Shown one piece after another: positions 11,497 to 49,500 of a stretch of DNA of 64,000 nt; the first letter of the stretch is position 1, and each line of letters begins with the position of its first letter. Both the position numbers and the translations under genes were made by a program. The DNA is from Paragorgia papillata (taxonomy: Eukaryota; Cnidaria; Anthozoa; Scleralcyonacea; Coralliidae). Below the pieces are notes generated by a model. The model saw only the letters and a program-made list of their open reading frames with translations, did not search any database and had not been told where the DNA came from. The DNA is taken from assembly GCA_035771165.1 (NCBI GenBank), contig JAWNZC010000100.1, positions 3,426,001 through 3,490,000 on the forward strand, written 5' to 3'.

Positions 11497-13416
11497 GTTC
11501 CCATTAAAGAGTCCACAGTTACTAGTGAAATGGGAAAATGCTTTTAAAAAATTTGATGCTCAAGGGGGAAAATGGACAGCCAGCTCTTCCAGCTACATTT
11601 GCAGCAAACATTTTTTAGATAATGATTACATGTTTACAAATGCACTTCTAAAGATCAGAAGTTGTCGGCTAAAATTCAGTGCTGTTCCATTAGTTTTACT
11701 AGTAAATCCACCTGCAGTTCCAGCAATGCCTGATCAAGATCCAGTGGTCACATGCCAGGGGCCTAAAGTAGACAGCCCCCCAGATAGTTCTCCCCAACCA
11801 CCAACCACTTTTCAACAAGTAAATCCACCAGCAGTTGCAATAACTCATAATCCGACAGCTGGAGGTCAGGGGCTTAAACGCATTCTCCCAGATGATTTTC
11901 TCACACCAACAAGGAAAAAATTGAAGCTCGACAACAATGTCAATCTTCCCCTTTATAGTTCTCCACCTGTAAAAGATGAAATTAAGCACAGTGGTGACAA
12001 CTCAATGCTCGACAAAATGATAAAAGAAAATAAAAAGATGAAACGGAAAATCAAAACACTGAAGCAGCAGCTGAGAAGGAAAGATAACAAAATCAAAACC
12101 ATGATGAAGCAGTTAATTTCCACACTAAAGAGAAAAATGTTAATTAAAACAGCAGAAGCAAAGTTGCTTCACAACAATTTCGATGGTGTAAAACTAGCGT
12201 TATTTACTAATGCACTAAAGAATTACAAAAAGTCATCAAGAAACAGGAGATACAGCAATCAAGTTAAAGAGTTTGCACTCACCTTACATTTTTACTCTCC
12301 AAAAGCTTACAAGTATGTGAGATCTATCATGCCGCTTCCTAACCCCTCTTTAATTCGCAAGTGGGCAAGTTCAATAAATTGTGAACCAGGATTTCTGAGT
12401 GAATCCCTTCACATTCTAGCAGAAGAATGTAAAACCAAACCTGAAAACAAAGATAGCTGTTTGGTACTGGATGCGATGGCCATACGGAAGCAAGTCGTAT
12501 GGGATGTGGCCAACATCCAATAATGGCTAGCAACGCTGGTCTAAAAGTGTGCTGTGTTACATGTGATGGCACTACGACCAACATCAGCACGCCACATTTA
12601 AATACCTTGGATGCAGTTTTGGTCAATCGTATCATTCCATGGTTACAAGATTTCAACACCCTTCCACAGGTGAAGATGTATTTGCCATTCTAGATGCGTG
12701 TCACATGCTGAAGCTTGCCAGGGGCATTTCTTGGCACAATTCATTCAAATGATGGTGAGAAAATACAGTGGCGATTTTTCCATGGCCTTCATCTTATCCA
12801 AGAGAAAGAAGGATTCAAGTTTGGCAACATATTGTCCACAAACCACATCGAGTGTGAGAAACATAAAATATATGTCAGACTAGCTGCCCAAACACTGAGA
12901 AGTTCAGTTGCCAATGCCATGGATTTCCGAAACATCATCCAGAAACAGCCAGAATTCGAAAACAGCGAAGCAACAGTGACATTCATCAGGACCATGGACA
13001 GATTGTTTGACATGCTGAATTCCAGAAACCCCCATGGAAAAGGATTCAAGCAACATTTAAGGCTAGTGGATGTTAACAAGTGGCAAGAAAGCCTTCAATC
13101 AACTGCAAAGTATCTTCTAAGTCTCAAATCCAAGGATGCAAAAGCACTAATTAAACATCGTTGGAAAACCTTTATCGTGGGGTTTGTGATAACCATCAAG
13201 TCCACATTTGAAATGGCGAAGGAGATTCTTACAATGGAAGAAATGCCATTCAAGTATGTGTTAACATACAAGTATTCCCAAGACCACATCGAGCTTCTCT
13301 TTTCTTGCATCAGGGCTAAAGGCCGAAGGCGGTTGGAATAACAATCCAAACTCTCTCCAGTTCAAATATGCTCTACGAAGAATGCTCCTTGGGAATGCTG
13401 TCACAGCATCAGAATG
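11497..13416 (+). pseudogene. P-element/THAP9-like transposase, degenerate
   Basis: This is a relic of a P-superfamily transposase, the nuclease that cuts and pastes P-type elements. Reading starts after an acceptor at 11495-11496 with 'FPLKSPQLLVKW' and 'ICSKHF', the C-terminal half of a THAP zinc finger (the CxxC start would be on an upstream exon that I cannot find). A Pro-rich linker, a Lys-rich coiled coil (around codons 165-215) and the family block 'EFALTLHFYSPKAY' follow. After 12523 the frame breaks and part of the catalytic core is missing. 'DACHMLKLARG' (about 12693) and 'SQDHIELLFSCIR' (about 13280) are conserved P-transposase blocks. A one-base shift near 13325 separates the final 'NNNPNSLQFKYALR' segment. 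At least three frame breaks make it non-functional. No bounding TIRs were found. Family assignment is confident; element limits are not. Confidence 0.88.
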
Positions 13417-15039: not shown

Positions 15040-15558
15040 TGGCGCAATTAACCCATTCCCGTCTGAACAGGCCAAAAATGGTTCCTTTATTGTTTTACTC
15101 TGTCTAACACCAGATGATTTTCTCATCAAAGAGAGAACCCTCAGATATTCTAGACAGCAATAGCTTAACAAGTGATTAACTCATTCCTGCCTGAACTGGC
15201 CAAAAATGGTCCCTTTATTGTTTTACTGTGTCTAACACCAGATGATTTTACTCATCAAAGAGAGAACCCTCAGACGTCCTAGGCAGCAATGAGTTAACAA
15301 GTGATTAACCCATTCCTGCCTGAGCTCGTTAAAAATGGTCCCTTTATTGTTTTACTTTGTCTAACACCAGATGATTTTACTCATCAAAGAGAGAACCCTC
15401 AGCCATCCTAGGCAGCAATTAGTTAACAAGTGATTAACCCATTCCTGCCTGAGCTCGTTAAAAATGGTCCCTTTATTGTTTTACTTTGTCTAACACCAGA
15501 TGATTTTACTCATCAAAGAGAGAACCCTCAGACATCCTAGGCAGCAATGAGTTAACGA
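15040..15558. repeat. ~127-bp tandem repeat, four copies
   Basis: The unit runs from 'taacccattcctgcctgag' through 'aacaccagatgattt' to 'cctaggcagcaatgagttaa'. It is the same array as at 46941-47325 in the CSDE1 intron (three copies there). Confidence 0.9.
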
Positions 15559-15796
15559 TAAATGGCTCTCTTTGTACCAAAATGGATAGACTTCCACTTT
15601 TCCAACGACTTATGGTGTATTATGAATTGAGAATATGAATTGAGAATATTATTTTAATATTTTTAGGTGAATACAGTGAACAAACAAACACCCTGTTATC
15701 AAGTGATGAAAAAAGACGTTTTCAAAAGCTTGGATGGGCACGACCACGTCGCATTTACAAGGTACAGTACTTGTATTTTGTTATACTCCAACTCAT

Positions 15797-16040
15797 TTTA
15801 CTCTGATAACGGGCTCCGCTTGAAACTTCAGTATTTCGTTATCAAAACTTTTCTCAGCAGTTTACCACCTTTTCACTTTGCTCTATCTAAAACACTGCCT
15901 ACACAGCACTCTACGTTTTACTCTGATGAAGGGCTCTGCTTGAAACGTCAGTATTTCGTTATTAAAACTATTCTCAGCAGTTTACCATCTTTTCACTTTG
16001 CTCTATCTAAAACACAGCCTACACAACACTCTAGGTTTTT
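15797..16040. repeat. ~121-bp tandem repeat, two copies
   Basis: The unit contains 'cgtcagtatttcgttat' and 'tcttttcactttgctctatc'. The homologous array at 47550-47900 has three to four copies. Confidence 0.85.
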
Positions 16041-16619: not shown

Positions 16620-17060
16620 AGAAAATTCAAAAGAAACAAATATTTAATCAATATCTGTAAATCGCATACAGATTCGTCCTGATTTACATAAACTTTTTCC
16701 TCAATTTACTTAACTAAAATCACTCCAACTTGAAAAATAGTTTGAAAACATGGCTACATTTAGATGTGTCCATTAATGCATTCGCGTCATTAATGCGTGC
16801 AATAATGCGTCCGATAAAGCATTCGCAGCCGATTTGTATCTGATTTACTATGCATGGCTCACTTGCAGCTCACCTTTTAAATCAGATACAGATCGCTGCT
16901 AATGCTTTATCTATTACTTCTCACTAATAATTCATGAGCTGATTAGCCAATCAGAGAAAAATATTCGGTCATGTGTATGAGTTATGAGAAGACAATAGCT
17001 GGTTGAAAGCAACGTTAAAAGTTACACATTTCTGATAAATGATATAAAATGCTTTGTTTC
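16620..17060. repeat. Interspersed repeat shared with 60567-60855 and 38640-38800
   Basis: Blocks such as 'cctgatttacataaact' and 'cattcgcgtcattaatgcg' recur near-identically at about 60620-60790, and parts recur at 38100-38165 and 38640-38740. The interior contains inverted 'tgtatctgattta'/'aaatcagataca' pairs, so it is a foldback-type element without coding capacity. Confidence 0.75.
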
Positions 17061-17069
17061 AGTGAATGT

Positions 17070-17101
17070 CAGAGGAGGTATAAAGCCTATCCCACAATGC
17101 A
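17070..17101 (+). promoter_or_regulatory. Left TIR with embedded TATA box
   Basis: GGTATAAAGCC inside the left TIR contains TATAAAG at 17079-17085, about 95 bp upstream of the ATG (17179) of the plus-strand gene. The right TIR carries GGTATAAGGCC in the mirrored position for the minus-strand gene. That TIRs act as promoters is inference from position. Confidence 0.5.
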
Positions 17102-18169
17102 ATGCGAACACACTATATTATCAACGCTAAAGCACGCGCGATGCATTATTAATTCATGAGCTGCCGCAAGTGTCGGTCATGGAAGTACGGCGAAGTGAGT
17201 CGAGTGTATTGAAGAAAGATCAAGTAATTGTAGTCCACTGTATCGAAGAGAATTCTCACGATTATGTAATTAGTGGGGCGCAGTGTTTCACTTTATGCTG
17301 TAGTATAATTCGTTTAAGCATGATTGGGAAATTAAGGGAAAGAAGAGTAGCGATGATCTACTCGGTTGGTGGTTGGGATCTTGTTCTTCGAAGAATGAAT
17401 TATCCTGTTTGTATTCAAGTATTGTCATGTTGTGATTTTCAGGTGAATAAAGTTCTTATCTTGCAATAGTTTGTGTGTGACTAGATATTTACCGATCAGT
17501 ATTATGTTTTCTACTGAACATGTGTCACAGCCCTGGCTCAGATGCACTGACTCAAGTCAGTTTGCACAAGTTGCGTTAAGGCTGACCTGTGACCACTGAT
17601 CTCAATAAAACCTTATATATAAAGCCAAAAATTGACTCAAAGTTTATATAGATATCAGTGGCTGTGACAGGCTACATATAGCTAGTCTTAGTTAATCGAG
17701 TTTTACTTACCGAGACAAAGAACGTTCATTTGCTTCCTTATACTCCTATTCTCAAACAATAGTTCCTTGTCAAGGACAAACCATTCACGGCGGTCCTTAT
17801 CACAGAATTCAATGTCCTTACTTCAATTGTCATAAATCCGCTTGAGCCTGATGAGGAATATAGCAGTGAAAGTCTCACAGAAACCATGCCACAGTTGGAT
17901 ATTAAAGTACACAAATAGTACAATTTTTCGTGCAATTGCATCAATTTTTCTAACCCAAACAAAGTACTATTCCAACCAATTGAACCAATCATAGACTCAG
18001 ACGACGATTCAGTAGAAGACATCCAATTACTTTTCCACAATCCCTCGAACAATTCTGTTGGTGACTATGAACACACTGATGGGCCTGCTGCTGCTGCTGG
18101 TGATAATGATGACAACAATGACGATCCTGCTGGTGAATATGAACAAACTAACAATCCTGCTGCTGCTGG

Positions 18170-19220
18170 TGATAACAACGACAACAATGACAATCCTACT
18201 GGTGGTGATAACAACGACAAGAATGACAATCCTACTGGTGGTGATAACAACGACAACAATGACAATCCTACTGGTGGTGATAACAATGGCAACAATGACA
18301 ATCCTACTGGTGGTGATAACAATGGCAACAATGACAATCCTACTGGTGGTGATAACAACGACAACAATGACAATCCTGCTGGAGGTGATAACAACGACAA
18401 CAATGACAAGCCTACTGGTGGTGATAACAACGACAACAATGACAATCCTACTGGTGGTGATAACAATGGCAACAATGACAATCCTGCTGCTGGTGATAAC
18501 AACGACAACAATGACAATCCTACTGGTGGTGATAACAACGACAACAATGACAATCCTGCTGCTGGTGATAACAACGACAACAATGACAATCCTACTGGTG
18601 GTGATAACAATGGCAACAATGAACACACTAACAATCCTGCGCTGCTGCTGGTGATAACAACGACAACAATGACAATCCTGCTGGAGGTGATAACAACGAC
18701 AACAATGACAAGCCTACTGGTGGTGATAACAACGACAACAATGACAATCCTACTGGTGGTGATAACAATGGCAACAATGAACAAACTAACAATCCTGCTG
18801 CTGCTGGTGATAACAACGACAACAATGACAATCCTGCTGGAGGTGATAACAACGACAACAATGACAAGCCTACTGGTGGTGATAACAACGACAACAATGA
18901 CAATCCTACTGGTGGTGATAACAATGGCAACAATGAACAAACTAACAATCCTGCTGCTGCTGGTGATAACAACGACAACAATGACAATCCTGCTGGAGGT
19001 GATAACAACGACAACAATGACAAGCCTACTGGTGGTGATAACAACGACAACAATGACAATCCTACTGGTGGTGATAACAACGACAACAATGACAATCCTG
19101 CTGGAGGTGATAACAACGACAACAATGACAAGCCTACTGGTGGTGATAACAATGGCAACAATGACAATCCTGCTGCTGGTGATAACAACGACAACAATGA
19201 CAATCCTACTGGTGGTGATA
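18170..19220 (+). repeat. 36-bp coding minisatellite (GGDNNDNNDNPT)n
   Basis: The unit 'ggtggtgataacaacgacaa' plus 'caatgacaatcctact' is repeated about 29 times, with variants (GCTGGA for ACTGGT, GGC for GAC) arranged in higher-order blocks, notably a ~147-bp block recurring from about 18625. Both strands are open in several frames; only the plus-strand Asn/Asp frame is continuous with the HIRAN domain. Confidence 0.9.
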
Positions 19221-19809
19221 AAGACAATTTGTACTGTCAAACGTTTGCTGGAAGAGGGTCGTACTGGGAAGAGAGGTACCAGTGTGCACTGAAGAAATGC
19301 AACGAAATTATGCGTAATGATGAAGAAGTTGTAGTTCGTGTTGAATTTGAACCAGACAATGAGCAGGATAGAAATGCCATAAGATTTGATGCTTGTATAG
19401 ATGGCTTATGGCATCCTCTAGGTTATGCTGGGCTTCGAAAGATTCCCAAGTTGACCAAAGCCATCAGAATGAATGAAATACAGTCCATCTCCCTTAGCCA
19501 TTTCCAAAGTCGGTATGTTCATCAGCAAGATAAAATGATGATTACTGGCGTCTTTACCTTTGTGAAATCTTCCCCTTGGTTAAGAGACTGTGACCAGAAT
19601 AGATACAATGCAGTCTTGAACGTATGACTTTTCAGTGCATTTCATTGCAATGCAACAATCACTGCTTCGTATAAATAATGACTGTACAGTGTACATCCAA
19701 GATTTTAATGCTCACTCACTGTTTGCTCACACTTGTATCTATTGGTTGTGAATGGGCTGGGTCGAAGGAAACATGGGTGGTGTACTCTTAGTCCACTTCT
19801 TCTCTCTGT

Positions 19810-20105
19810 GGCACACAAAAATTAAACCCAGTTGGATGGGTTAGTACTTGGATGGGCCTTAGTACTTGGATGGGTGACCACCCAAGAATGAGACAGTTTT
19901 TTAAGCTTGAGCTTGAGACTCGTGCAAGTAGAGTTGTTGTTGGTTTCTCTTGTGCTTCGAGGGTTTTATTGGGTTCACTGGTTTTCCTAGATGTTAACTG
20001 TGCTCAGTGGTCTGACATGTGTTGTATGTTGGCTTGCAGGAGTGCCTTTGACTCTGCCAAGTTGATCTGTGTCCTTTGCAAAATTTCAGCCACCAGGTGC
20101 AAATA
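19810..20105 (+). mobile_element. Diverged 5S-rRNA-derived SINE
   Basis: It contains GGTTAGTACTTGGATGGG...GTGACCACC, the box C region of 5S rRNA, partly duplicated (TTAGTACTTGGATGGG occurs twice). The body matches the SINE at 52782-53151 in reverse ('cttgtgcttcgagggtttt', 'gtggtctga'). It sits in the last intron of the HIRAN gene. Confidence 0.75.
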
Positions 20106-20241
20106 AGGATGATTAGCCCCCAGTGCTTTTTGATAGTAGTGTTGAAAAACTCACATCTGAGGAAAATTACTGTATTTGTGTCAACCTCATACCCAAGAAC
20201 TTTTCTAAGTGGAGAAAACTTCCTGGGAATGAGGTTGGAAT

Positions 20242-22039
20242 TTATTGTGGTGCTACAGTGAATGGTAAATTAATTGGATCTCGATGCATGCGTTGCCTTA
20301 TGGAACCCTTATCACGTATTGGCAGGAATGACCGACCAACTGTGAAGATTGATGGAGCTTCCCTTCTGTTGATCTTGAGGTTGTGAATCCGCAAGGGATG
20401 TTGTTCTGGTTGTATATATGAGGCAACAGGTGGTGATTCATCAAATGATACATATGTCTCATCTGGGCCTTTAAACCGCTCATTTAATGTCCAATAATAA
20501 AATGACAAATCATCATCCATCTTCATAGTAAATTCTCTAAAATATAAAGATACAAGAAAATAACAAGAAAAATTAAAATATAAAAATACTTGACGTATCA
20601 GTTGTATTTGGTTAGATTAAATTAATTTTTAAGATAAACTTCATGTAATGGCAAATGCATTCCAGCTATACCTGCATATTTCTCCAGTGGTACTTGAATT
20701 CCTTCAATGTGAAAGTACAGCCAAGTTTTTGATGGCACAAGGAAAAGAAGCATTCAACATCATCTGTTGTACTGGCTCTTGGATGTTCTTCCCATCCAAT
20801 GGTTTCATTTTCACATCTTCGGTATTCCTGGCTCTCAATGTTGGTGGTTATGGCAATTAGGGTTTCTCGCCTGTTAGATAATTTCCAGCCCCCAATGTCT
20901 TTTATGCATAGTGCTTGGTACTGTAAGTATTATCAGCTCACCACTGTGCTAGTAATGTATCATAATCATACAATTTACCTGTTTATATCAATGGACGATA
21001 AGTCATAATCGGTGTTGTGCCATGGAAACAACTCACCCAGCAAATAATTGAGCATCTCATAATTGGCTTTAGATCTATTCAGTTGGGACACTCCTCTTCC
21101 ATCAGATGCTTCATGCCATCTTGCCACGATTTCTACATATTCGACCTCTGTTTTATGTCCTTTCTCATCTAAAAATTTGGCTACATGAAAAGAAAGAAGT
21201 TTCTCTGCATCAGTTCCTGACTGCTTTCGCTTGCCTACAAGAGCTGTATGGGTCAGACCAGTTTTGGGATCTCTCATATTGCCTCATCAAAAGCATCCAA
21301 GTTTAATTTTAAATAAGCACCCTCCCTTGTGTGCTTTGCTATTCGCTTCAGAATTTGGCAGTGGTCTTCCCTTTCATGGTGGATGATTCCTGTGATTGGG
21401 TCAGTCTCTGGTACATAAAGGTGGGTTGAGAAATCAATTCCTTTTTCTTTCCAAGCAGCAACAGCTTGTTGAAAGAATAGGGTACCAATGAGTGAACGAA
21501 GGCAGTCAAGAAATGATTCAGGGATGTTACGTCTGAATGTGTGTGGTGTATGACTAACAGGGACCAACATGTGACGGATGTTTTCCACAGCCTCAATCAA
21601 GTCCAAACCATTACTTTGACTCAAACAAATTGACTCAACTACTTCCCTAGGTATGGCTGGATGGGGGTGTACAGCAGTGACTTCACCATTTGTATCTGAA
21701 AGAATTATTTTCAAACAAAGAAAGTTGTTGTTAATATTATTGTTGTTGTTACTATACTATTGTTTTTATTATTATTATTAATTATTATTTAATATTATTT
21801 ATTATTAATTATTATTTAATATATTTAATATTATTTATTGTTATTATCATTATAATTATTACTATTATTTAATACTATTATTAATTACTATTATTACTAT
21901 TATTATAGTTACTATTACCATTACCATTACCACTACTATTACTATTACTATTATCATTTTCATTTTCATTGTTATTATTATAATTCTTCTTCTTCTTCTT
22001 CTTCTTCTTCTTCTTCTTCTTCTTCTTCTTCTTCTTCTT

Positions 22040-22070
<31 letters not shown>

Positions 22071-25000
22071 TAATGTAAGGAACAATTTCCCACAAACAGC
22101 AGGATTTGAGGGACTGAGACAAAATGAATTTTACAATTTGATGTTTTTTTAGAACTTGCTGTATGGGGGTACCGAATAATTATAGAAATAGTAATTATTT
22201 TCTTACCCTTAATATACTCAAACATTCTTAACAGTGATTTCTTCGACAGCTGTTTAACTGATTTTCTGGCATCATGGATGAGCTGCCAAATATGGAGGTC
22301 TTGTTTCTCCCTGAGTTCTAAGTGAACTGAATTCACCATCAGTGACCGTTCCTAAATAAATGATTATAGAGAGGTGCTGTTCTCAGTATTTCATTACTAT
22401 TACATACATAATTTGTATTGTGACAACGCCTACCTACAACTTTCAAATTCTGCCCTGTCATAGCCATTTTCACCTTGTTCACAAGTACACGCAAGCTTTT
22501 GTCAGCAAGTGATGTGTATGGAACATATTGTACTGGAACAGCGTATGGTTTCATAGTCCTTCGTTCATCAGACGCCATTGTGACGAGGACATGGGTTGCT
22601 GGAGGTTGTCTTTTTTTCTTAAACAAGTCTCGAAGGTAGGTAAGAAATTCTGGGTGTATGTGTTTGAATTGGAAAATAAATGACTTAAAACAAAAAGTAT
22701 CTGGACTTAAAAATGCAGACAGGTTCTGGATGATGTTGTGCAAGCGCTGACAATTTTCCAGAAGTTTACTAAATTCCACTACATCCCAGTTTAGCTCTTT
22801 CAGACGTTCTTCAGGTGACCCCACTTTGTCATACTTCTCCTGGTACTCTTTAAGTGAAGTTGACAGTCCAGCTTCTAGAAACCCCTTGTCCTCTATCAAC
22901 CCCAGTTGAATTCCCTGGAGAAGTGAAGATGTCTCCTTGGGGGAGGAATGCACTTTAAGGCAATGAGTTATCCCACCCTTTCTAACTGAATACTCATTGT
23001 TGAGCTGGCCAAGTTTGCCATCTCCAAGATCAACATCTCCATTCCACTCACCCCTTGCAGACTCAAATAAGGCACCCTTTACATCTGTGGATCAGCCTTT
23101 ATCCAAAACCGAGCATCTTTATGTGAGAGCACCAATCTCCTGATAGTCTCTCCCTTAAAGACAAATCAATGCAAATAGGTGAAATTATTGAGGACTACAC
23201 GAATTAGGATGCAATCAGCAGGGGTTAGAAAATATTTTGGGCCCCATTTGCCAGAATGAAAAAAAAAAAGAGAGCAACTTTTAGAATATCATATAAAGAT
23301 CTTACCTTTTGAAACGCAGTTTTTCAATCGAAACAGCGCCAACGAAAATATCTATAATTTGATCATCAACTGTCACGCTCCGAGCCAAGGGAAGAAAACT
23401 AAACGCAATGCATTGTGGGAAGAGCTTCGTACCTCCTCTGGGGTTCTGCCTTGTATGGGCTGTTTTTGGCTGGCTCAGGCAGCAATGCGTTACAACATGT
23501 ATAACATTGAACTTACACACACATGGGATGTTTATGCCATCTGCAGCTATTCCACTCCACATTTGTCCTCTGAACAGGTGGTTAAAGCGATGGCCTAGCT
23601 CTGACACCATAGTTGAATGCCATAATGCATAGTCTCTGGGCATGGTTATCTTTAAAAAACAATTTTTTTTATAACAAACAACATAACATGGAACCAGTAT
23701 AATCCTTGAGATATGAAACATTTCATACTGATACAAAATGTACACCTACTGTACAGTGTGACACCTTTCTAACCTGTTGTGAATTTTTGCATGTAAAGAA
23801 CTCGATTTGGTACTGAACCAATCCAAATGGCATGCGATTCATTTGCATTACCTGAACCATCAGGCCTTTGTTTACCAACACATTGGGCAAATTTAAACAA
23901 AAGATTACTTTTTTGGTTCTGTTATAAATTTTCCATTGCCACAAGGGACAGAGAAATGAATTTTGAGCGGTGTGATGTTATTCCTTTCCTTTCAGCAATG
24001 TCCAGGAACATGTTGTCTAGCACATCAACTATTTCATCAGTTCCCAACAAAGTAGTATCGTTTTAATCAAAATAATGAGTGCCCTGGTGCCACTTTTTTC
24101 CAGTAGCTTAGAACAACGGTACAATACTGAGTCCACAGTGTTGTCTTCTACATGAGGGACATCAGTAGAAGTAGATGGTGTGCTGTCAGAGTTCAAACTG
24201 GTTTCACATTCGTAATCAATGCCATATTCCTGCACCACTGCTTCTAATGTTCCTTTTTTTCGATCGAACAGCATGTGCTGGACAACAAATGAACATAATT
24301 TTTCTAAGTTAATATTATTTACAATACGAGTGGTCATGTTGATCTCAGATTATTTGAGAAAAGGCTCAATTTCAGTGTGCCAGACAAACCTTGTTTGTAA
24401 GTAAATTATTCATTATTGGTCTATAAACTCTATTACTATAACAGAATTCTAACAGGTTAAGGTATACAGTACTAGTATTCGGTATACATGCACTGATTAA
24501 AAATTAATTTCTTTTGAATCTTCTTTGTGAATAAACATTAGCAATATTTGTGAACGTGCAGCAATTAGCAATATTCCATGCTCTCTGACAGTGTACATAT
24601 TTACAATGATATTTATCAAAATAAGAGAATAAAGGTGGAATCGAACCGACCTCGACAAAAACGTTCACCAGAATTATTCTTAACACACTTAAAGGACATG
24701 AAATATTGCAAATAATGTGATCTTTATTACTGCTAGTGCAGAAAGTAAACGGCACCAAATTATTTTAAAAATTAGCAAAAATGTTCACCTGTTCTTTCAG
24801 ATTCTCCACATGTCTCTTTAACAAAATGAGCAGCATTTTCCCAGTAAGGATGTTGCTTTCGCAGTGAAGGCCACTCACTTTGTGTTTCTTGAAGATCTTT
24901 CTGCAACGCAATGAATCGGACAAGAGCGATATCTTCTTGCTTTGACCAAGCACCTTGCCTTACTTTGCGTTTGGCCTCGAATGATGTCGAAGCTGAAGGG

Positions 25001-25590
25001 CTTTCTCTGACCTATAGAAAACAAAATACGAAACATTGAGTACATTTTGACTTAAACTAAAACTGTTAATAGACTGTGGATTACCTTGTCATTCGAAGAA
25101 CCAACTGGAAATAAAGATCGACGGGAATATCCGTGTTCGTTTGGAGGAACTAGTCTTGTTTGCTTCTCTTTGTGCGGAGTATCTCCTGTTGAAACGTGTG
25201 GCCTCTCGTTGCCATAATACCCAAATTTCAACGGAAAATTTCGCGACGAAAACGTGGAGCCTTAAGGAGCCTTTTTATAACTTCAGACGACATAAATATC
25301 GAAGTTTACGAGTAGAACAAAAAATAGATGATTCCTCAAAAGAAGACTGCCAAGCACTGTGGTAATTTATGCACGATTTCGCAGTGTCATGTTCGAATAA
25401 TCTTACATCGATTGCAAATTCCAACGATTTTGTCCAATAGTTAGTCAGGACTGGCAAATTTAACATAATAAATTCGAAAATGATATAATTATTTATCCAC
25501 CACGCATATTTTAACCGTCCAATTTGCTTGGAGCATATCTTCATGACACAGTTTGTACAAAGCAACTGCGGTCCGCAAAGACGACGCCAT
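20242..25590 (-). pseudogene. Large transposase-like gene with Myb/SANT domain, unknown family, frame-damaged
   Basis: It reads from a start in the right TIR region (ATG at 25590, 'MASSLRTAVALYKLCHEDM'). Exons: 25085-25260; 24789-25011 with 'GAWSKQEDIALVRFIAL' and 'EWPSLRKQHPYW', a Myb/SANT-like domain; about 23780-24337; about 23310-23650 ('GINIPCVCKFNVIHVVTH', 'RQNPRGGTKLFPQCIAFSF'); about 22435-23165 ('FESARGEWNGDVDLGDG'); 22207-22351 ('VTDGEFSSLRTQGETRP'); 20979-21695 ('VHPHPAIPREVV', 'HEREDHCQILKRI', 'LTGKRKQS'-like); 20242-20536. The acidic motifs (KADP-DV, GDVDLGDG, TDGE, HERED) would suit an RNase-H-like nuclease core, but I cannot name the family. Frame breaks occur near 24060, 23935, 23103, 22280 and 21275. 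It converges on the HIRAN gene within the same TIRs, so it is the best transposase candidate. Confidence 0.65.
21735..22070. repeat. ATT/TTA-rich tract and (CTT)n microsatellite
   Basis: 21735-21990 is built of ATT/ATC-type triplets; 21987-22068 is (CTT)n. It fills the intron 21696-22206 of the minus-strand transposon gene. Confidence 0.92.
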
Positions 25591-25620
25591 CTTGTTTTAA
25601 TAATGATTTATTGGTTCCGG

Positions 25621-25652
25621 TGCATTGTGGGATGGGCCTTATACCTTCTCTG
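25621..25652 (-). promoter_or_regulatory. Right TIR, possible minus-strand promoter
   Basis: On the minus strand it reads CAGAGAAGGTATAAGGCC, with a TATA-like TATAAGG about 50 bp upstream of the ATG at 25590. Three bases differ from the left TIR. Confidence 0.45.
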
Positions 25653-25683
25653 AGTGAATGTTCATTGTGAATGCGTGATCAAT

Positions 25684-25957
25684 TATCGATAGTTATTGAT
25701 ATTTATTGATAGTTATCGATAGTTATCGATAGTTATTGATAGTTATTGATAGTTATCGATAGTTATCGATAGTTATAGATAGTTATCGATAGTTATTGAT
25801 AGTTATCGATAGTTATCGATAGTTATCGATAGTTATTGATAGTTATCGATAGTTATCGATAGTTATTGATAGTTATTGATAGTTATCGATAGTTAGTGAT
25901 AGTTATTGATAGTTATTGATAGTTATCGATAGTTATCGATAGTTAAAGATAGTTATC
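25684..25957. repeat. 10-bp satellite (AGTTATCGAT)n
   Basis: About 27 copies of AGTTATCGAT, with frequent C to T variants (AGTTATTGAT). Each perfect junction creates TATCGATA, a palindromic octamer. It begins 23 bp beyond the transposon's right target duplication. Confidence 0.95.
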
Positions 25958-26034
25958 CCACTAGTTATCACATACTAATGAACATTTTTACCCCACAATT
26001 TCCTCTCTTCAAAGCCCTGCCACTTTACGTTGTT

Positions 26035-26709
26035 TAAGGTGGCTCCATGCAGTTTCGCGAAAAATGGAAAATACAAGTTTGAGAGTCCAAAACACGTGAT
26101 TAAACAATTCGGAAAAAGAATAAAACTAAATGTTATGCATAGTTAAACAGTCTGACAATCAAAAACTGTTACCAAATAAATAGCAACAGTAGCAACAATG
26201 ACGTTTCAAAATGGCTGCCAATTACCGTTCAAACTAATTTAATTCTGAAAAAACTTTGGTGACCCCAAATATTTTTTTCTTTAAAACTTTTCTTGAAGTA
26301 TTAGTAATCAATAGCCCGATTTAAAAAAAATTCTGTAGAACGAATTCTTTTAAAAATTAACAACCATGTTTTTTCCGGGGGAAAAATTATTCGTTTTACA
26401 GAATTTTTTTAAAATCGGCCTATTGATTACTCATACTTCAAGAAAAGTTTTAATGAAAAAAAAATTGGGGGTCACCAAAGTTTTTTTCCGAATTAAATTA
26501 GTTTGAACGGTAATTGGCACCCATTTTGAAACGTCATTGTTGCCATAGCAACAACTGTTGCTATTTATTTGGTAACAGTTTTTGATTGTCAGACTGTTTA
26601 ACTATGCATAACGTTTAGTTTTATTGTTTTTCGGAATTGTTTATGTACGTGTTTTGGACTCTCAAACTTGTATTTTCCATTTTTCAAGAAACTGTGTGGA
26701 GCCACCTTA
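26035..26709. mobile_element. Foldback MITE, TAAGGTGGCTCC family, copy 2
   Basis: It has full-length inverted arms with both termini intact; homologous to 961-1623. Confidence 0.88.
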
Positions 26710-26821
26710 AGACAGTTGGATAAAGCATATAACGCGTCTCTTGGAACAATGAATTTTGGGTGTGTCAACGTATAAGTGTGCTGTTGGGGCGCTGTCAGAT
26801 TGCTGCTCATACTTTATCTAT

Positions 26822-27511
26822 GGGCGCTTTCCTTTTGAGCAATCCAAATCCAGATTTCAAAATCGGATTTTCGATTTACTGTTCCATTTTCCAAAAGCTG
26901 AAAAATAATTCGAATCTAGTGAATCGGTAGGCGAACGTGGATTTTATCTCAATCAAGATTGCGATTTTTCGTTCCTTTTGTAATTAACTTTTCTGACCGC
27001 TGACCACGGCAATTGTGAAGTCGGCTCGTGAGGTAAAATGGCGGGAAAAGAACAAGGTGAGTACTTCTAGACGATGAATTTTATTAGTCTACAGTCCAAA
27101 TACCATTGTTGTTGTCAATTAGCCAGTAGAGACTAATAGCTAAGATGCCCCCTTGTTATTTTTTAACTTTGTAGGAACACCTACAGTACGTTTGTTACTA
27201 CAGGATATTTGTCTGAAAAGATTTGCGAGAATCGAAATTGTGGCCATCCTTTTTCTGCATCAAGTAAAGGTCTACATTGCAAAGATAATGGAGCATGCTC
27301 GTTTTATTCAACGGACGAATATTCCAAGCCTGAGGAAAATGACAATGGACTTCGTCTGAAGCCATTTCTCTTGGCCGCCATTTTCCAGCATTTGCGCCCG
27401 CGTCAGGTTCACAAGCTGACCAGCGCAGCAAGTCCGTTCCATTTATTAACAAAACCTGAAAAATCCAAATCTCAAAAATCTGGATTTGGATTGCTCAAAA
27501 GGAAAGCGCCC
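26822..27511. mobile_element. TIR element carrying a two-exon ORF (Pack-type candidate)
   Basis: GGGCGCTTTCCTTTTGAGCA at 26822 is the exact complement of the right end at 27492-27511, continuing into ~36-bp TIRs. The shorter copy at 63020-63394 lacks about 320 bp of interior. The element ends ten bases from a CSDE1 splice donor. Confidence 0.8.
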
Positions 27512-27541
27512 TATTACGTACATTACGATCTTGAACTGTGA
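27038..27541 (+). CDS. Captured two-exon ORF with paired cysteines, unknown
   Basis: Exon 1 at 27038-27056 (MAGKEQ, donor AAG|GTGAGT) joins in phase to exon 2 at 27204-27541 (acceptor CTACAG). The joined frame gives 118 residues, including 'EKICENRNCGHPF' and 'LHCKDNGACSFYS', two Cys pairs plus His that could bind zinc. The C-terminus runs through the right TIR into the antisense of a CSDE1 exon, so the true 3' end is doubtful. I do not recognise the family. It is likely a captured gene fragment. Confidence 0.4.
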
Positions 27542-28771
27542 ATTGGACATCATCTCCCAGTAACAAGTCACCAATATCACCATTAAACTCGCTGTAGTGA
27601 AAAAATATCTACAAGGAGAAAATAGTGTCTAAATAAAATATTCATAGATATTTCCCAAGTCTTCTGAAGACATCTTGCATGGCTAAGATGCTACCATTTG
27701 CGATCAACCGTTAGGCGTGACAGTTCAAACGCATTTGTTTACGTTTCAAACGTGCAAGTTTAGCAGGAAAATTTTGACGTTTTAAAGTGCATATAACCCC
27801 CGCATTTTTTATCATCTAAATACGTTCTACCTTTGGCAAATAGTTGAACAACGAAATATTTTTGAGATTGGAGCAAGCTTTATTGCTTTAATAGAGATTT
27901 TTGTTTTCAAAATGGTAATGAGATGACGCCAAAGTAGTCATCATTATCTATACAATATTTATTTGCAGGAGTGACATGACCCAATTCTTCCATTAATGGT
28001 GTGTTTGAACAACATGTTCCATATTGTAGGAGGTTTTCCACAAAAATTCTCGGGTAGTTTATCTTGCCAAAAAGAGAAAGAAAGCCAAATGCCTGCATAG
28101 ACGTCATCTCATTACCGTACTAGAAATGCGAATAGCCAAAAAACATTGAAGAATAGCTCTAAATCAAAAAAATATTTCACTGAACAACTGTTTGCTCTAT
28201 GTAGAAGGTATTCAGATGAAGAAAAAAATTGGGTTTACACGCACTTTAACAATAGCTTGATGAATCACCCGCCACTTTTTGACAGGTGATTGATTGGGGT
28301 ATTGTTGAAACGTCAAATTTTCCAGATAAACTTGCACGTTTGAAACGTAAACAAATGCGTTTGAACTCTCACGCCTAACGGTTGATCGCAAATGGTAGAT
28401 TCTTCAAAGTTTAGGCTTGGTAACTTTGTCAACTAACCTCACTGACTTTGTCTGCCCTTTCAATAAATCCAAAATATTCTCTCAATGAACAGACAATGCC
28501 ATGAACCACGTTAGGTGGAGCTGCTTCTACCAACAATAACTCAACTGCTGAAACACATCCATTCCTTAATATAAACAAAACATAAGATAATCAACTGTAA
28601 TACAACAACAACAGCAGCGACAATAGCAGCAGCAACAATAGCAGCAATAACAACAACAGCAGCAGCAGCAGCAACAACAGCAGCAACAACAACACCACCA
28701 CCACCAGCAACAACAGCAACACCACCACCACCACCAGCAACAGCAGCAGGAACGACAACAGCAGCAACAAT

Positions 28772-28805
<34 letters not shown>

Positions 28806-28824
28806 GCAGCAACAGCAACAACAG

Positions 28825-28862
<38 letters not shown>

Positions 28863-28926
28863 GCAGCAGCAACAACAGCAGCAGCAACAACAACACCACC
28901 ACCACCACCACCACCAGCAACAACAA

Positions 28927-28961
<35 letters not shown>

Positions 28962-28992
28962 GCAGCTACAACAGCAGCAGCAGCTACAACAG

Positions 28993-29024
<32 letters not shown>

Positions 29025-29350
29025 CCACCACCAGCAACAGCAACAGCAGCAACAACAACAACAACAGCAGCAGCAGCAGCAAAAACAGCAGCAGCAACAA
29101 CAGCAGCAACAACAACAGCAGCAGCAGCAGCAGAAACAGCAACAGCAGCATCAGCTCAGCATCAACACCAGCAGCAACAACAACAGCAGCAGCAGCAGAA
29201 ACAACAGCAACAGCAGCAGCAGAAACAACAGCAACAGCTCAACAGTAACACCACCACCACCACCAACAACAACAACAGCAGCAACAGAAGCACAAACAGC
29301 AACAATAACAGCAACAGCAGCAACAACAACAACAACACCACCACCAACAC

Positions 29351-29382
<32 letters not shown>

Positions 29383-29735
29383 ATAACACCACCACCACCA
29401 CCAACACCAACACAAACAACAACAACACCAACACAAACAACAACGATAAACAAACATGTACACACCTCTTGTTTTCCAAAACAAAAAATGACACTAGGTC
29501 ACCTTTGTGTAGTTGATTATTTGCAACAATATCAGAATAAGAAAATGGCAGAAAAAACGATTCCTTTTAAAGAAAAACAAGAAACACTCTTAGAGTAGAA
29601 CAACTAAAATAGGATAGGATATATCCTATGCGCCAAGAAACATTTGGATGAGAGCCAAAACAGTCGAGAACAAATTACACCATTGACTTGATAACTGACA
29701 CGTCCCGCATCAGAATCACTACCACGAGATGATGG
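27522..29735 (-). CDS. CSDE1-like: Partial second copy of CSDE1: four consecutive exons, open and in phase
   Basis: Exons in transcript order: 29679-29735 ('GSDSDAGRVSYQVNG'), 29466-29563 ('HKGDLVSFFVLENKR'), 28438-28564 ('EYFGFIERADKVSE') and 27522-27608 ('[14 protein letters not shown]'). All GT-AG sites and phases (0, 0, 2, 0) agree. They match the segment of CSDE1 between the first and second canonical cold-shock domains plus CSD2, including both RNA-binding motifs (FGFI, FFHY). The last exon differs only at a few synonymous sites from exon 63404-63490 of the main gene. I see no CSD1 exon upstream (29.74-30.5 kb) and no intact following exon downstream; only the displaced fragment at 14.86-16.11 kb continues the series. 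It lies just past the main gene's stop, same strand, as a tandem duplicate. Expression is unknown; an assembly haplotig is an alternative. Confidence 0.85.
27691..28397. mobile_element. Foldback element in the CSDE1-copy intron
   Basis: CTACCATTTGCGATCAACCG (27691) is the inverse of the end at 28378-28397, with TIRs of ~70 bp that include 'aaacgtgcaagttta' and its complement. The same left end is present at 63928-64000. Confidence 0.82.
28607..29455. repeat. (CAG/CAA/CAC)n microsatellite, ~850 bp
   Basis: Irregular CAG, CAA and CAC triplets fill nearly all of the 901-bp intron between exons 29466 and 28564. On the transcribed strand it is CTG/TTG/GTG. The poly-Gln/poly-Leu open frames are by-products. 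Confidence 0.95.
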
Positions 29736-30076
29736 CTTAAAAATATAAAAGTGATATTAATGTACAGCTTTTACAGCACAAAGCAATTGACCTAAGCAAG
29801 TAGTCATTCAGTTCTTCCATCAATCAGTCAGTGTGTATACAGGGGGTCCCAAAAAAATGCCCCCCCCATCCATTTATGAGGTGCACCCATTGAACTCTAA
29901 AAAGACTGGAACGATAACTCAGGGGGGGATTTTGAAGCTAGTGCCAGTCCCTTTGCAGGTAGCTCCCGTGCTTCAAGTTACTTAATTTTCATCCTGCCAT
30001 ATATTTTGTTTGGGACGATACCAAATTACTCCAAAACAACGGATTGAAATACATTGTTTTATACGTATGTTTTTAG

Positions 30077-30475
30077 AAATAGCATTGGCTTCAATTTGAT
30101 GTATAGTATAAGTTTCCTCGTTATTTTAAACTTTTTAAAATGTAGTAAATGTTCGACCATATTTCGCTGGGAAATAACACTAAGAAACTTGTTGTAGTTT
30201 TTCGGAGTTATGAGCAGAAATACTTAACGCTGAACGTTGGGCTATATATGAAACTGAAGCTATTGAAAAATGCTATTTGGTATAGAAACGTCAAGACTTT
30301 AGCTAAAAGGGAAATAATTAAAAAATATAAAAACACCTGCCATTTTGTAACGTTCGGCAAACAAAATGGTAGTTGTTTTTATATATTTTTTATAACATTT
30401 AAAGATTTTTGGCTTCATCCAATCATAGGGCCTGACTTATGGAGTTAGCGTTCCAGTTTACTTTAATAGAGTTCA
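30077..30475. repeat. Interspersed element shared with 52380-53265
   Basis: It is near-identical to 52380-52680 and 53180-53265. The 52-53 kb copy additionally holds a second inverted arm and a SINE. An anonymous 99-codon plus ORF (30149-30448) is part of the element. Confidence 0.8.
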
Positions 30476-37500: not shown

Positions 37501-40500
37501 GGCAGTTTAAAAAAACATGCCTCCATCTTGTTTTTCCTCTACTAGCAGGATATGAGCTGATAGCCTGGTAGTAGGGAACCAATCAGATTACGCAAAAGCT
37601 CATATCCGATAGCATGCTATATAACATTTAACAAATAGATTCCATTTTGCCGTTGTCTGTTTCAGTTATAGATGCACAGATGACGTCACAACGTGGTAAG
37701 AACAAAAAAGTGGCCCACGAGACGCAGTCGAGTGGGTCACTGATGTTCTTACCACGTTTGTGACGTCTTCTGTGCATCTATAACTGAACAGACAACAAAA
37801 AAATGGAATCTATTTGTTTTATACAATAAAAGTTTAAAAGGTTTTTGTCGAAACTCTTGCCGGATTTTGGGGCATGAAAAAGGAAAAAAGCAAGTCAGCT
37901 GACGTGATCTGACGTGACCATGCGTCTGTCCTCTAATAGATCATGGGCAACAACCAATGAAAACACGCATAGCAACCAGGGTATTGTATAATAAAACTTA
38001 CCTCACTAAACGAATTCTAGATGCGCTCAGCTTTCCACTACGTGTGTTCTGAACGATACAGAACTCCACTGCGTCCCCAGCCTTGAAAGAAATTTTCTCA
38101 AACTCATTAATAATTCACGAGCTAATTAGCCAATCAAAGAAAAAATATTTGGTCGTGTGCATGAGTTTTGAAACCCAATAAAGGGCGCGCAAACTGAATT
38201 TATAATTAAGAAATCAGATAATAAACGACACAAACAAAGAACCGTTTATAACCACATTTCTTAATTATAAATTCAACGTGAAACTATTATCTATAAATCT
38301 AATATGCACCAATATCACCAAGTCCCTCTACTATAATTGACGATTGAGAAGCTATTTCATAAACTCGTGTATCGTGTTTTACCAGGGGTTTGCAAACACT
38401 AGAGAACAACAAAAATCACTCAGCTGCCTATTACCTCGTAATTTGCAATGTTCTCTCGTGTTTGTAAAACATTCGAAAACAATAAAAATCACTTGGCTTG
38501 CAGCCTCGTGATTTTCATTATTCTCTCATGTTTTACAAACACTCGAGATCAATGAAAATTACTCGGTTAACGGTCTCGTGATTTTCATTGTCCTCTCGTG
38601 TTTGTAACCCCTGGTAAAACACTCCCACTCGTTTTATGAAATATTACTTCAAAAACTTGAGGAAAATTCAAAAGAAATTAAAGTTTAATCAGTGTCTTTA
38701 TACGTGATAAAGATACCTCCTGATTTACATAAACTTTAGCTTTGATTTTCTCGGCTTAGACAAGGTTATTTTTCAAACTTACTACGCCAATGAACTTACC
38801 AAGTGGTTCGTTTTTGAAGCCGTTCAATAAACTCGCAGTTCGTGTTTTATCAGATATAAAAACGCTCGGCTTCGCCTCGTGTCTTTATATCTGATAAAAC
38901 ACTCCTGCTCGTTTATTAAACAGTACATAGGCCCCGTTCACACTATACCGGATAGGTTTTCGTGCCGGCACGAAAACCTATCGGGTATAGTGTGAACAGA
39001 CGGCATAATTATGTGCCGTTTCGTGCCGAATACGATATAACCCCGTGATCCAACCAATCACCACGCTCTATTCTATTAATATACTTCCGAAACGATTTCG
39101 ATCTCCGTTCACACTGGAGCTGAAACGGCACAAAAAGCTATCCGATACAAGATGTACCTCTTTCGAGATCGGAGCGGCGCAATGGCGTGCCGGCACAGAA
39201 ATTGTGCTGGAACAGGCGTTTAGGGTGTGAACAGAAGACCTATCCGGTATGGTTTTCGTGCCGGCACAAAAGCTATCCGGTATAGTGTGAACGGGGCCTT
39301 AGTTCACGAGATCCTTGGGTTTTTTTGATGTACCGCGGTTGTTTATTTTGAATAGTTACTCCCGACAAGTTAATTGCCCCGGGCTAATATATAGAACTCG
39401 CGATCAAGCTCTCGGCAACGCCCTCCGTGGCTCAGTGGTCAGAGCATTGCACTAGAATCGCAAGGTCGTGGCTTCAATTCCTGCCGGAAGGCCTGTGTAG
39501 TTGCATTTTTCGCAACTGGTCCCGGTTTGGTCTTAAAATGTATAGTATTCTACACTCGAATTTTCCTTCACCCAAAATCCTTAGAACATGCTATATGTAA
39601 TCGAGTGAAATGCCCAATATCACTTATAATATACCCAATTCTCTCCTGGCATTACCACCTTATTATATATACAGAACTCGCGATCAAGCTCTCGGCAACG
39701 CCCTCCGTGGCTCAGTGGTCAGAGCATTGCACTAGAATCGCAAGGTCGTGGGTTCAATTCCTGCCGGAAGGCCTGTGTAGTTGCATTTTTCGCAACTGGT
39801 CCCGGTTTGGTCTTAAAATGTATATATTCTACACTCGAATTTTCCTTCACCCAAAATCCTTAGAACATGCTATGTAATCGAGTGAAATGCCCAATATCAC
39901 TTATAATATAATATATATTAGCCGGGGGCAATTAACTTGATTTATGCATGGTTGGGAAAATAAGCTTTAATCCATGGTCACTAAGCCATTTATCATCGTG
40001 ACCGAAGTGTTTTTAGACAATCTCTATGATAATGAACTCAGTAGCTCAGTTTTCTTAGGGGCCGTTTACATGGACAAACGTTGTCCCTGGTAGAAGGGTC
40101 ACCCTGCCCCCCGAGCTACCCTGAGGGAGCATTGCCAGAAATACGCGACATCCGATTGCGCAACACCCCGTCGGGACCAGTGTGGCTCATTGAACTCGCA
40201 CAATTTGTATATGAAATTATATAGGGCGCGCGTATTGTTTGAAATAGACAAAGAAGATGTACTGTTTCTCGAAATGCGAAATCAGATCTTATTGAGGTTA
40301 ATGTTGAAGAATATCATGGACTAAAAAATTGAGCGCTATTGGCAAATTTTCGGTTGTCCCTCAGAAAATATATAAAATCGTGTTGGTTCTCTATGGTTTA
40401 GTCTGTGTTAGTACGAATTAAACTCCTAGTTACATATTTAAAACCGCTCGTGAAGTCGTAACATCCACAAAATCAAACATGCGAAATCGGTTTATGTGAG

Positions 40501-46500: not shown

Positions 46501-49500
46501 CACTCCACTTCACTCCACTCCACTTCACTTCACTTCACTGCACTTCACCTCACTCCACTTCACTTCACTCCACTCCACTTCACTTCACTCCACTTCACTG
46601 CACTCCACTTCACTGCACTCCACCTCACTTCACTTCGCTTCACTTCACTTCACTCCACTTCACTTACAATTACCTCTTGCGGGATAGAACCGCTGGCCAG
46701 CTTAACCAACTTCTCAGCTGCAACTTTGCCTCCTTTAGAAGTAACGCTAAACTCCATTTCGTCGCCAAGAAAAAGGTCATCGATACTTCCCTCGTACTCA
46801 CTGCAAAACAAAATAACCAAATGACACAGTCTTGTCAGCAGTCTTGTTTCCATATTTATAACAAGCGTGACAAAATTCCTGCATTCTGATTGGTTTAGAA
46901 GAGCGCAATTAGATCGTTAATTACACACTGCGCAGCGCAATTAACCCATTCCTGCCTGAGCTGGCCAAAAACGGTTCCTTTATTGTTTTACTGTGTCTAA
47001 CACCAGATGATTTTACTCATCAAAGAGAGAACCCTCAGACATCCTAGGCAGCAATGAGTTAACAAGTGATTAACCCATTCCTGCCTGAGTTGGCCAAAAA
47101 TAGTTCCTTTATTGTTTTACTCTGTCTAACACCAGATGATTTTACTCATCAAAGAGAGAACCCTCAGACATCCTAGGCAGCAATGAGTTAACAAGTGATT
47201 AACCCATTCCTGCCTGAGCTGGTCAAAAATGGTCCCTTTATTGTTTTACTCTGTCTAACACCAGATGAATTTACTCATCAAAGAGAGAACCCTCAGACAT
47301 CCTAGGCAGCAATGAGTTAACGATAAGTGAAGCCTTTGTACTAAAATAGACAGATTTCCACTTTTCCAACAACTTGTGGTGTATTATGAATTGAGAATAT
47401 TATTTTAATATTTTTAGGTGAATACAGCGAACAAACAAACACCCTGTTATCAAGTGATGAAAAAAGACGTTTTCAAAATCTTGGGTGGGTAAGAAGCGTC
47501 GCATTCGCAAGGTACAGTACTTATATATATTTTGTCATGTATACTACAACTCATTTTACTCCGATGAAGGACAGTCTGCTTGAAACGTCAGTATTTCGTT
47601 ATCAAAACTATTCTCAGCAGTTTACCATCTTTTCACTTTGCTCTATCTAAAACACTGCCTACACAACAATCTAGTTTTTACTCTGATGAAGGACTCTGCT
47701 TGAAACGTCAGTATTTCGTTATTAAAACTATTCTCAACAGTATACCATCTTTTCACTTTGCTCTATCTAAAACACAGCCTACACAACACTCTAGTTTTTA
47801 CTCTGATGAAGGACTCTGCTTGAAACGTCAGTATTTCGTTATTTAAACTATTCTCAGCAGTTTAGCATCTTTTCACTTTGCCCTATCTAAAACACTACCT
47901 ACACAACACTCTATTCCCCCCCCCCCCCGCCCGCTCACCTATATCGAAAGAAAACTTCTTTCTCATGATCAGCCATCTCGAGAAATCCAAAGTTTTCCTT
48001 CAGTGTAGCTACAAAGCCCTGGAGAAAAAATAGAATGGTGTTGTCAAAACAACAATGATCCTTTGTTGATAACAACAAGAACAACAACGACAACAACAAC
48101 AACAACAACAACAACAACGACGACGACAACGACGACGACAACGACGACAACGACGGCGACAACAACAACAACAACAACAACGACGACAACAACAATAACG
48201 ACGACGACGACAACAACAACAATAACAACAACAACAACAACAACGATGACGACGACGACAACGACGACGACGACAACGACGACGGCGACGACAACAACGA
48301 CAACGACGACGACGGCGACGACAACAACAACAACAACAAGACGACAACCACAACAGCAGCAACAACATAAACAACGACGACGACGACGACAACAACAACA
48401 ACGACGACGATGACAACAACGACGACGACGACGACAACAACAAGACGACAACCACAACAGCAGCAACAACATAAACAACAACGACGACGACGACGACAAC
48501 AACAACAACAACACGACAACCACAACAGCAGCAACAACATAACAACAACAACAACAACAACACAACCACAACAACAGCAGCAACAACAGCAGTAGCAACA
48601 ACAACAACAACAAATGTTGTTGTTTAGTCTAGGACATCATCAACTCTCCTTCACTAGCTCTTCTTAGACCCAGCACTTAAATAACGGCGCTTCAAACATA
48701 TGTTAAATACTACACACGTAAAAACGCGCAAGCTGTTACATGCCTGCAAGCAAGTTGTTACAAGGCTTCAACAGGCTGTCACCATCATGTGTTCGCACTG
48801 GCTGTCCCAGTCTGTTAACATGTCTGTAACAGGTTGTTGACAACTTGTAACAAGGCTGATGACTCCAACAGACTGATGACAAGTTGTTCCAACAACCTGT
48901 TACCGCTCTGCACTCAACAAGTTGTTAACAGATTGATGCTGACAAGGTTGTAGCAGCTTCTTGAATGAACAGCATTGTTACAACCTGTTAAAATGCACAT
49001 AAACCCAATACAGTTTTCAGTTTTCTGTATATAGGACGCAAAAAGAGCTGATAAGTTCTTTTACAGTTTTTGATTTGGTCCATTCATTCCAGAGATATCT
49101 CGCTTTAAACATAGCTATTTAAATGAAAAAGCCGCAAATTATAGAGGATTGCGGCGAGACACCTATGACGTCATTTAAGTCAAAAATCAAATTTAATTTG
49201 ACGTCATCGGCTACACTAGCCGTGTTTGAGCAACCGTAAACAGCACACCTATCTGGCATTACTATAATCATTAAGCTGCAACTTGGAAAACTTCGTGCGT
49301 ACACGGCTAGTGACAGAGCGATCAGAGTTGACGTTTCTTAAATGACGTCACGCCTTGTCGGTTCCAGGCCCTATTTTGATCATATAATATTTGCGGCAAT
49401 TTTTCGCGGGACGTTCAAATTGGAGCATTTTGCCGATGTTTGAAGCAAGATATCTCCGAAACGAATGGACCAAATCAAAAACTGTAAAATAACTCATCAG

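Follow-up and report, generated by a model that had tools for sequence, protein, structure and literature searches.

The window examined here, a 64,000-nucleotide stretch of the Paragorgia papillata genome (contig JAWNZC010000100.1, here C100:3426001-3490000), carries an 8,583-bp element (17070-25652) with inverted ends, a 9-bp target site duplication (TSD) and two convergent genes, one for a protein with a predicted HIRAN fold and the other for a putative DDE transposase (Table 1). A preliminary description, made from the letters of the window, had reported these features, and as an observation it was confirmed as a whole: the 32-bp terminal inverted repeats (TIRs) are identical at 29 positions, and the 9-bp duplication is perfect and lies where it had been placed. 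The two convergent genes stood as well; the statement that the element held nothing else needed some correction, as an internal TIR-like end, a minisatellite and an 87-aa open stretch also lie within it. The decay of this copy, in which both genes are broken, was not visible to the reader who prepared that description.

Table 1. Features of the element and its boundaries (positions in the window)
Feature	Position	Strand	Remarks
TSD, left copy	17061..17069		9 bp, AGTGAATGT; single copy at 3/4 paralogous empty sites
Left TIR	17070..17101	+	32 bp
87-aa conserved open stretch	17179..17439	+	upstream of HIRAN main exon; probably the gene's 5' exon (predicted)
HIRAN gene, main exon	17750..19624	+	start approximate
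36-bp minisatellite	18163..19221	+	28.4 copies; encodes Asn/Asp/Gly-rich repeats within HIRAN gene
HIRAN domain proper	19229..19624	+	132 aa; motif FEPDNxxDRNAIRFD
Transposase gene	20242..25293	-	about ten exons; degenerate; exon borders read by eye
Transposase exon	25293-25085	-	break
Transposase exon	25011-24789	-	Myb/SANT-like region
Transposase exon	24303-23774	-	breaks
Transposase exon	23649-23517	-	
Third TIR-like sequence	23404..23440	-	inside transposase gene; 27/32 to left TIR
Transposase exon	23369-23306	-	
Transposase exon	23153-22434	-	break; first catalytic Asp, helical insertion, RNase H strands, by homology to P0001
Transposase exon	22351-22207	-	break; second catalytic Asp (VTDGEF)
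Transposase exon	21695-20979	-	break
Transposase exon	20870-20672	-	catalytic Glu (TTDDVECFF)
Transposase exon	20535-20242	-	
Right TIR	25621..25652	-	
TSD, right copy	25653..25661		9 bp, AGTGAATGT

The ends of the element begin CAGAG, and a weaker, gapped likeness beyond the left TIR extends to about 52 bp. Shuffled sequence gave a mean of 0.00 matches comparable to the TIR pair (n = 100). The best of 200,000 random pairs also reached 29/32, probably owing to unmasked simple repeats; as these likely hampered the random-pair test, the case for the TIRs rests on the shuffle test and on recurrence. The duplicated 9-mer is by itself not significant (at least two matches arose in 33 of 100 shuffles), and it is its placement, abutting both TIRs on the outside, that is telling. 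For the internal TIR-like sequence neither a partner nor a matching duplication was found, and an alternative element ending there (17070-23440), beyond which the flank is unlike AGTGAATGT, was dropped in favor of 17070-25652, with which the copies and the empty sites agree.

Those empty sites came to light as 11 places where the 80-88 bp of left flank next to the element recur, at 89-98% identity, without the remaining flank. In three of the four that were fetched a single AGTGAATGT is directly joined to the right flank; in the fourth, one base of the 9-mer is mismatched and 4 bp are inserted immediately to its left. The insertion is therefore real, and its ends and 9-bp duplication are fixed. 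The target (16984-17069, 25662-25957) is a small repeat, followed by a tandem array of TTATCGATAG; the repeat matched no Rfam family at gathering score.

The genome (617.9 Mb in 473 contigs) was searched with each end, 40 matches being scored in each case; the left end was used together with 20 bp of its flank. The preliminary description would have been undermined had the TIRs never paired at 5-10 kb; 16 such pairs were counted by eye from the two tables, the window's own included, and further pairs lie 4.7 kb or more than 10 kb apart. Most of the 16 are segmental duplicates, a status that the letters of the window could not reveal. Among the 40 of 1650 candidates that were scored, 27 places, window included, carry the left flank at 93-100% identity, 25 of them over 203 or more of its 210 bases and two over about 145. 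Seven copies (L002-L008, the window being L001) have about 0.5 to 1.5 kb of left flank in common with it when 1.5 kb is compared, and stretches of nine copies (L017-L034) align with the window far beyond the element, with kilobases of flank in common, e.g., L021 in pieces between window positions 5661 and 18093, and L028 over 25896-30389 and then in pieces from 7201 onward into the next copy. Given these common flanks, the neighborhood is a large segmental repeat with one old insertion, segmental duplication is the right account for most close copies, and the idea that the near-identical copies were independent insertions was rejected. The repeat spans about 5500-30400 of the window and is dispersed and partly tandem, with the next copy 23 kb away; it also contains, about 4 kb to the left of the HIRAN element, a P-element remnant (11525-13341, plus strand) with PF12017, PF21787, PF21788, PF21789 and a weak THAP match.

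In many close copies, as in the window, the transposase exon 20979-21695 is split over two frames (about 160 and 102 codons). It lies in a single frame of 250-259 codons in C440, C284 and C359, and of 219 codons in C273, which has the common flank. Three copies (C440, C359 and C3) look like separate insertions because their left-end matches begin exactly at the first TIR base. C3 keeps its left end beside a different flank, CATGGTGAG; its interior is rearranged, and a right end was not found. This copy picks up again exactly at 23441, next to the internal TIR-like end.

More distant relatives supplied independent insertions. Five HIRAN places have 56-59% identity to that of the window, and three of them (L041-L043, at C100:1105555, C145:597221 and C408:796525) lie some 1.1-1.2 kb inward of 55-bp matches to the TIR. 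These three are complete elements of 8093, 8092 and 8191 bp, with ends identical at 28/32 and perfect 9-bp duplications that are all different (GGGTGTGAC, GTCCAGCCT and GGGTTTGCT), and in each the HIRAN gene lies on one strand and the transposase, convergent, on the other. Among themselves the three are 95-99% identical over the main aligned blocks, and they are about 70-78% identical to the window copy at the nucleotide level over longer aligned pieces. In L041 the HIRAN frame is free of stops, as are the transposase exons when aligned to a nemertean relative, save for a probable intron preceding the last exon; L042 and L043 carry breaks. The TSD was thus 9 bp in all four insertions read at both ends, and the recurrence of both genes between similar TIRs, each time with its own duplication, supports the earlier interpretation of a mobile-element family. 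Taken together, sequence comparison establishes what marks a DNA transposon, i.e., defined inverted ends, a 9-bp duplication, insertion at formerly empty sites, and paired convergent genes recurring in a diverged family with independent duplications.

How regularly the two genes travel together was assessed in 52 of 59 HIRAN places (seven fragments left out) and 64 of 82 transposase places, the omitted ones being further or short fragments; both totals are lower bounds, best candidates having been scored. A convergent match to one transposase exon lay within 16 kb of HIRAN at 28 of 31 close places, which count mostly as one insertion, and at 4/5, 2/5 and 6/11 in three diverged groups. With a second exon and direct reading by eye the figures became 30/31, 4/5, 3/5 and 7/11, or 44 of 52 in all. 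No transposase exon was found at 7 of the 21 diverged HIRAN places (C130, C87:538922, C261, C234, C252, C72 and C215). In the other direction, a HIRAN partner accompanies the transposase at 40 of the 64 places and none is detectable at 24; many of the latter are diverged or fragmentary, and some (C187:238324, C175:74419 and C150:3340754) are open over 200 codons. The pair keeps its convergent order over a range of HIRAN identity that runs from 99% to 28%, and the most diverged examples, at C91:688900 and C408:1083360 beside HIRAN of 34% and 28% identity, are known from their genes alone, ends in diverged families having been read for the three 56-59% copies. The second condition that would have undermined the preliminary description, the two genes being widespread without the TIRs, was in this way covered in part. 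From the counts in both directions, the pair is old, yet transposase lineages without a detectable HIRAN partner exist.

As judged from conservation and predicted structure, the minus-strand gene encodes a putative DDE transposase, in which a Myb/SANT-like domain stands in front of a catalytic core resembling that of P elements. Its reading in the window calls for no fewer than six frame shifts and a stop. Its relatives, which span 100% of the queried part in a nemertean and a mussel, are uncharacterized proteins in nemertean, mussel, lancelet, anemone, coral, brittle star and sponge; since they are recorded only as such, a wide animal transposon lineage seems to be unannotated. Among 20 relatives the main recurring domain was PF21787, TNP-like_RNaseH_N (12 of 20, best E 1.3e-4; 0.0013 for the window read-through), and two matched Myb_DNA-bind_4 at E up to 0.1, the Myb-like region being covered by sequence in nine of the 20 and partly in a tenth. 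THAP, Tnp_P_element and TNP-like_GBD were not among the 11 families matched by these relatives at the same threshold, and neither THAP nor Myb_DNA-bind_4 was found in the window read-through. The closest structural match of the transposase model was P transposase, and the predicted structure has the P-like RNase H core of a DDE transposase, with a helical insertion of about 130 residues after the first catalytic Asp. The GTP-binding domain PF21788 was not among the Pfam families matched by the 20 relatives; structural alignment nonetheless covers 6p5a residues 133-565. Myb/SANT-like and transposase-like regions had been noticed from the letters of the window, in which the nearness to the P-element fold was not visible. 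A sequence search of the PDB found no real relative of this protein or of the HIRAN protein, scans of viral contigs found no relatives of either, and comparing profiles of the transposase family and part of the nearby P element gave a negative result (Prob 0.1). Foldseek by itself was uninformative for both models, and a family missing from the VIA lists does not count as excluded.

The HIRAN assignment of the plus-strand gene was upheld by structure and fell short by sequence: the predicted fold of a 243-aa relative, P0021, supports a HIRAN fold for the second protein, and the Pfam score is under the cut-off (16.7 vs 24.7 bits). The N-terminal part of the main exon resembles P0021 with the frames read by eye, and the exon has two breaks, a stop near 17916 and, near 18640, a frame shift. 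The upstream 87-aa stretch matched no Pfam family above cut-off and has 43 of 87 residues identical in the diverged family (pS 0.91, pN 0.30, the proportions of differences at silent and amino acid-changing sites); between families, most changes in it and in the HIRAN core are silent. Neither helicase nor RING parts were seen with the HIRAN protein, nor was a regulatory domain seen in the proteins scanned. The family has the motif EPxNxxDxNAI, which appears to retain one of the HLTF asparagines N90/N91.

We consider it likely that the element belongs to a lineage of cut-and-paste DNA transposons that is apparently undescribed and that also encodes a HIRAN protein. The Myb-like domain would bind the inverted ends, and the DDE core would cut these and join them to the target, itself cut with a stagger of 9 bp. 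For the HIRAN protein there are two precedents: Drosophila P transposase is described as cleaving with a 17-nt stagger (PMC10983969), and the purified HLTF HIRAN domain, in the experiments described for it, bound single-stranded DNA and forks, not duplex, with no binding by an NN90,91AA mutant (PMC4666394). From these we infer a role on single-stranded tails or repair junctions, in which the protein would hold what excision leaves behind, single-stranded ends or branched intermediates of repair, and so might shield the cut ends or steer repair of the donor gap such that the element is restored. This accessory role in end handling or repair, drawn by analogy, is a tentative proposal with somewhat less than an even chance of being correct.

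It is rather unlikely that the HIRAN gene is a captured passenger with no part in transposition. The transposase places without a detectable HIRAN partner would fit such a history, as would the expanded minisatellite and breaks of the window's gene, yet the constant convergent order over so wide a range of HIRAN identity and the prevalence of silent differences between families speak against it. We regard as unlikely the proposal that the protein is a regulator, either a repressor of the element or an anti-silencing factor, rather than a handler of DNA ends. It is encoded by a separate convergent gene, as are the regulatory partners of other two-gene transposons, and its upstream stretch resembles no known family; the binding of single-stranded DNA and forks by the HLTF domain (PMC4666394) points away from regulation, as does the lack of a regulatory domain in the scanned proteins. 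Distinctly doubtful is a third role, that of a targeting subunit which would read forks or 3' single-stranded ends and guide the paired transposase-end complex to them, coupling transposition to replication and raising copy number. Tn7-like transposons have a fork-reading subunit, and P-type elements are said to prefer replicating DNA. If the proposal were true, the HIRAN protein would be a eukaryotic, independently evolved functional counterpart of the former, and would offer a ready test of the latter.

That the element is an ordinary P element that acquired a neighbor gene is improbable. The best structural match, the main recurring domain and the true P element nearby all favor it, and the element is indeed like the P superfamily in its P-like RNase H core and cut-and-paste type. 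Against this, the 20 relatives match none of the three P-type families named above at E up to 0.1, whereas the nearby P element strongly matches PF12017 and PF21788. Compared with the P/THAP9 superfamily (Drosophila P, zebrafish Pdre2), the present family is Myb/SANT-like rather than THAP-bearing, has the helical insertion in its RNase H fold (in the model) and a second, HIRAN gene, has no GTP-binding family detected by Pfam, and begins CAGAG, unlike the CATAC of Pdre2. The TSD is 9 bp in every insertion read, as opposed to the 8 bp described for P and Pdre2 (PMC10983969). The element was not filed under P because a THAP domain and an 8-bp duplication were looked for and not found. Least probable by far is that the pair recurs merely through segmental duplication, with no mobile family behind it, which the flanks common to the window and most close copies might suggest, and which is already refuted for the family by three diverged copies with three different TSDs, and is opposed as well by the empty sites and the left-end matches of C3, C359 and C440.

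Comparison with other superfamilies likewise gave partial likenesses. Mutator-like elements typically have 9-bp duplications, as here; no Mutator transposase family was among the Pfam families of the 20 relatives at E up to 0.1, a weak test by Pfam alone. Dada elements, as described in PMC3706591, resemble the present family in their hosts, which include animals, their length (4.7-11 kb), their introns in most cases and a DDE transposase, with a DxxH motif, and differ in their 6-7 bp TSDs; their transposase has CCCC and CCHC zinc fingers, and the target here is the small repeat without an Rfam match. PIF/Harbinger elements have two genes as well, one of them Myb-like, and differ in their TSD, given as 3 bp (PMC2213677); here the Myb-like region lies within the transposase itself. 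KolobokP, as described in PMC9587614, is likewise an animal DNA transposon with a transposase and a second DNA-acting protein; its terminal repeats are long and direct where those of the present element are inverted, and it carries a His-Me nuclease where the latter has HIRAN. Unlike the HIRAN domains of HLTF/Rad5, that of the element is in a short, free-standing protein inside a transposon, with about 14% identity. We know of no named superfamily in which a P-like transposase and a HIRAN protein occur together, and a literature search, whose coverage excluded most subscription journals and Repbase, found no description of such a pairing. A transposon with its own end- or fork-binding protein would offer a two-protein system for studying how donor breaks and replication are dealt with by transposons, and the putative Myb-plus-P-core architecture may inform the divergence of the P, RAG/Transib and hAT transposases.

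Several other features of the window were recorded. A stretch at 19840-19890 (plus strand) resembles 5S rRNA by eye, with no Rfam match at gathering score. Paired 129-bp and 120-bp tandem arrays occur twice, at 15047-16039 and 46940-47913, and two tRNA-Ser (AGA) genes lie at 39421-39493 and 39701-39773. An open stretch at 57149-55947 (minus strand) resembles, by eye, an exon for a cold-shock domain in a host gene of the CSDE1 type.
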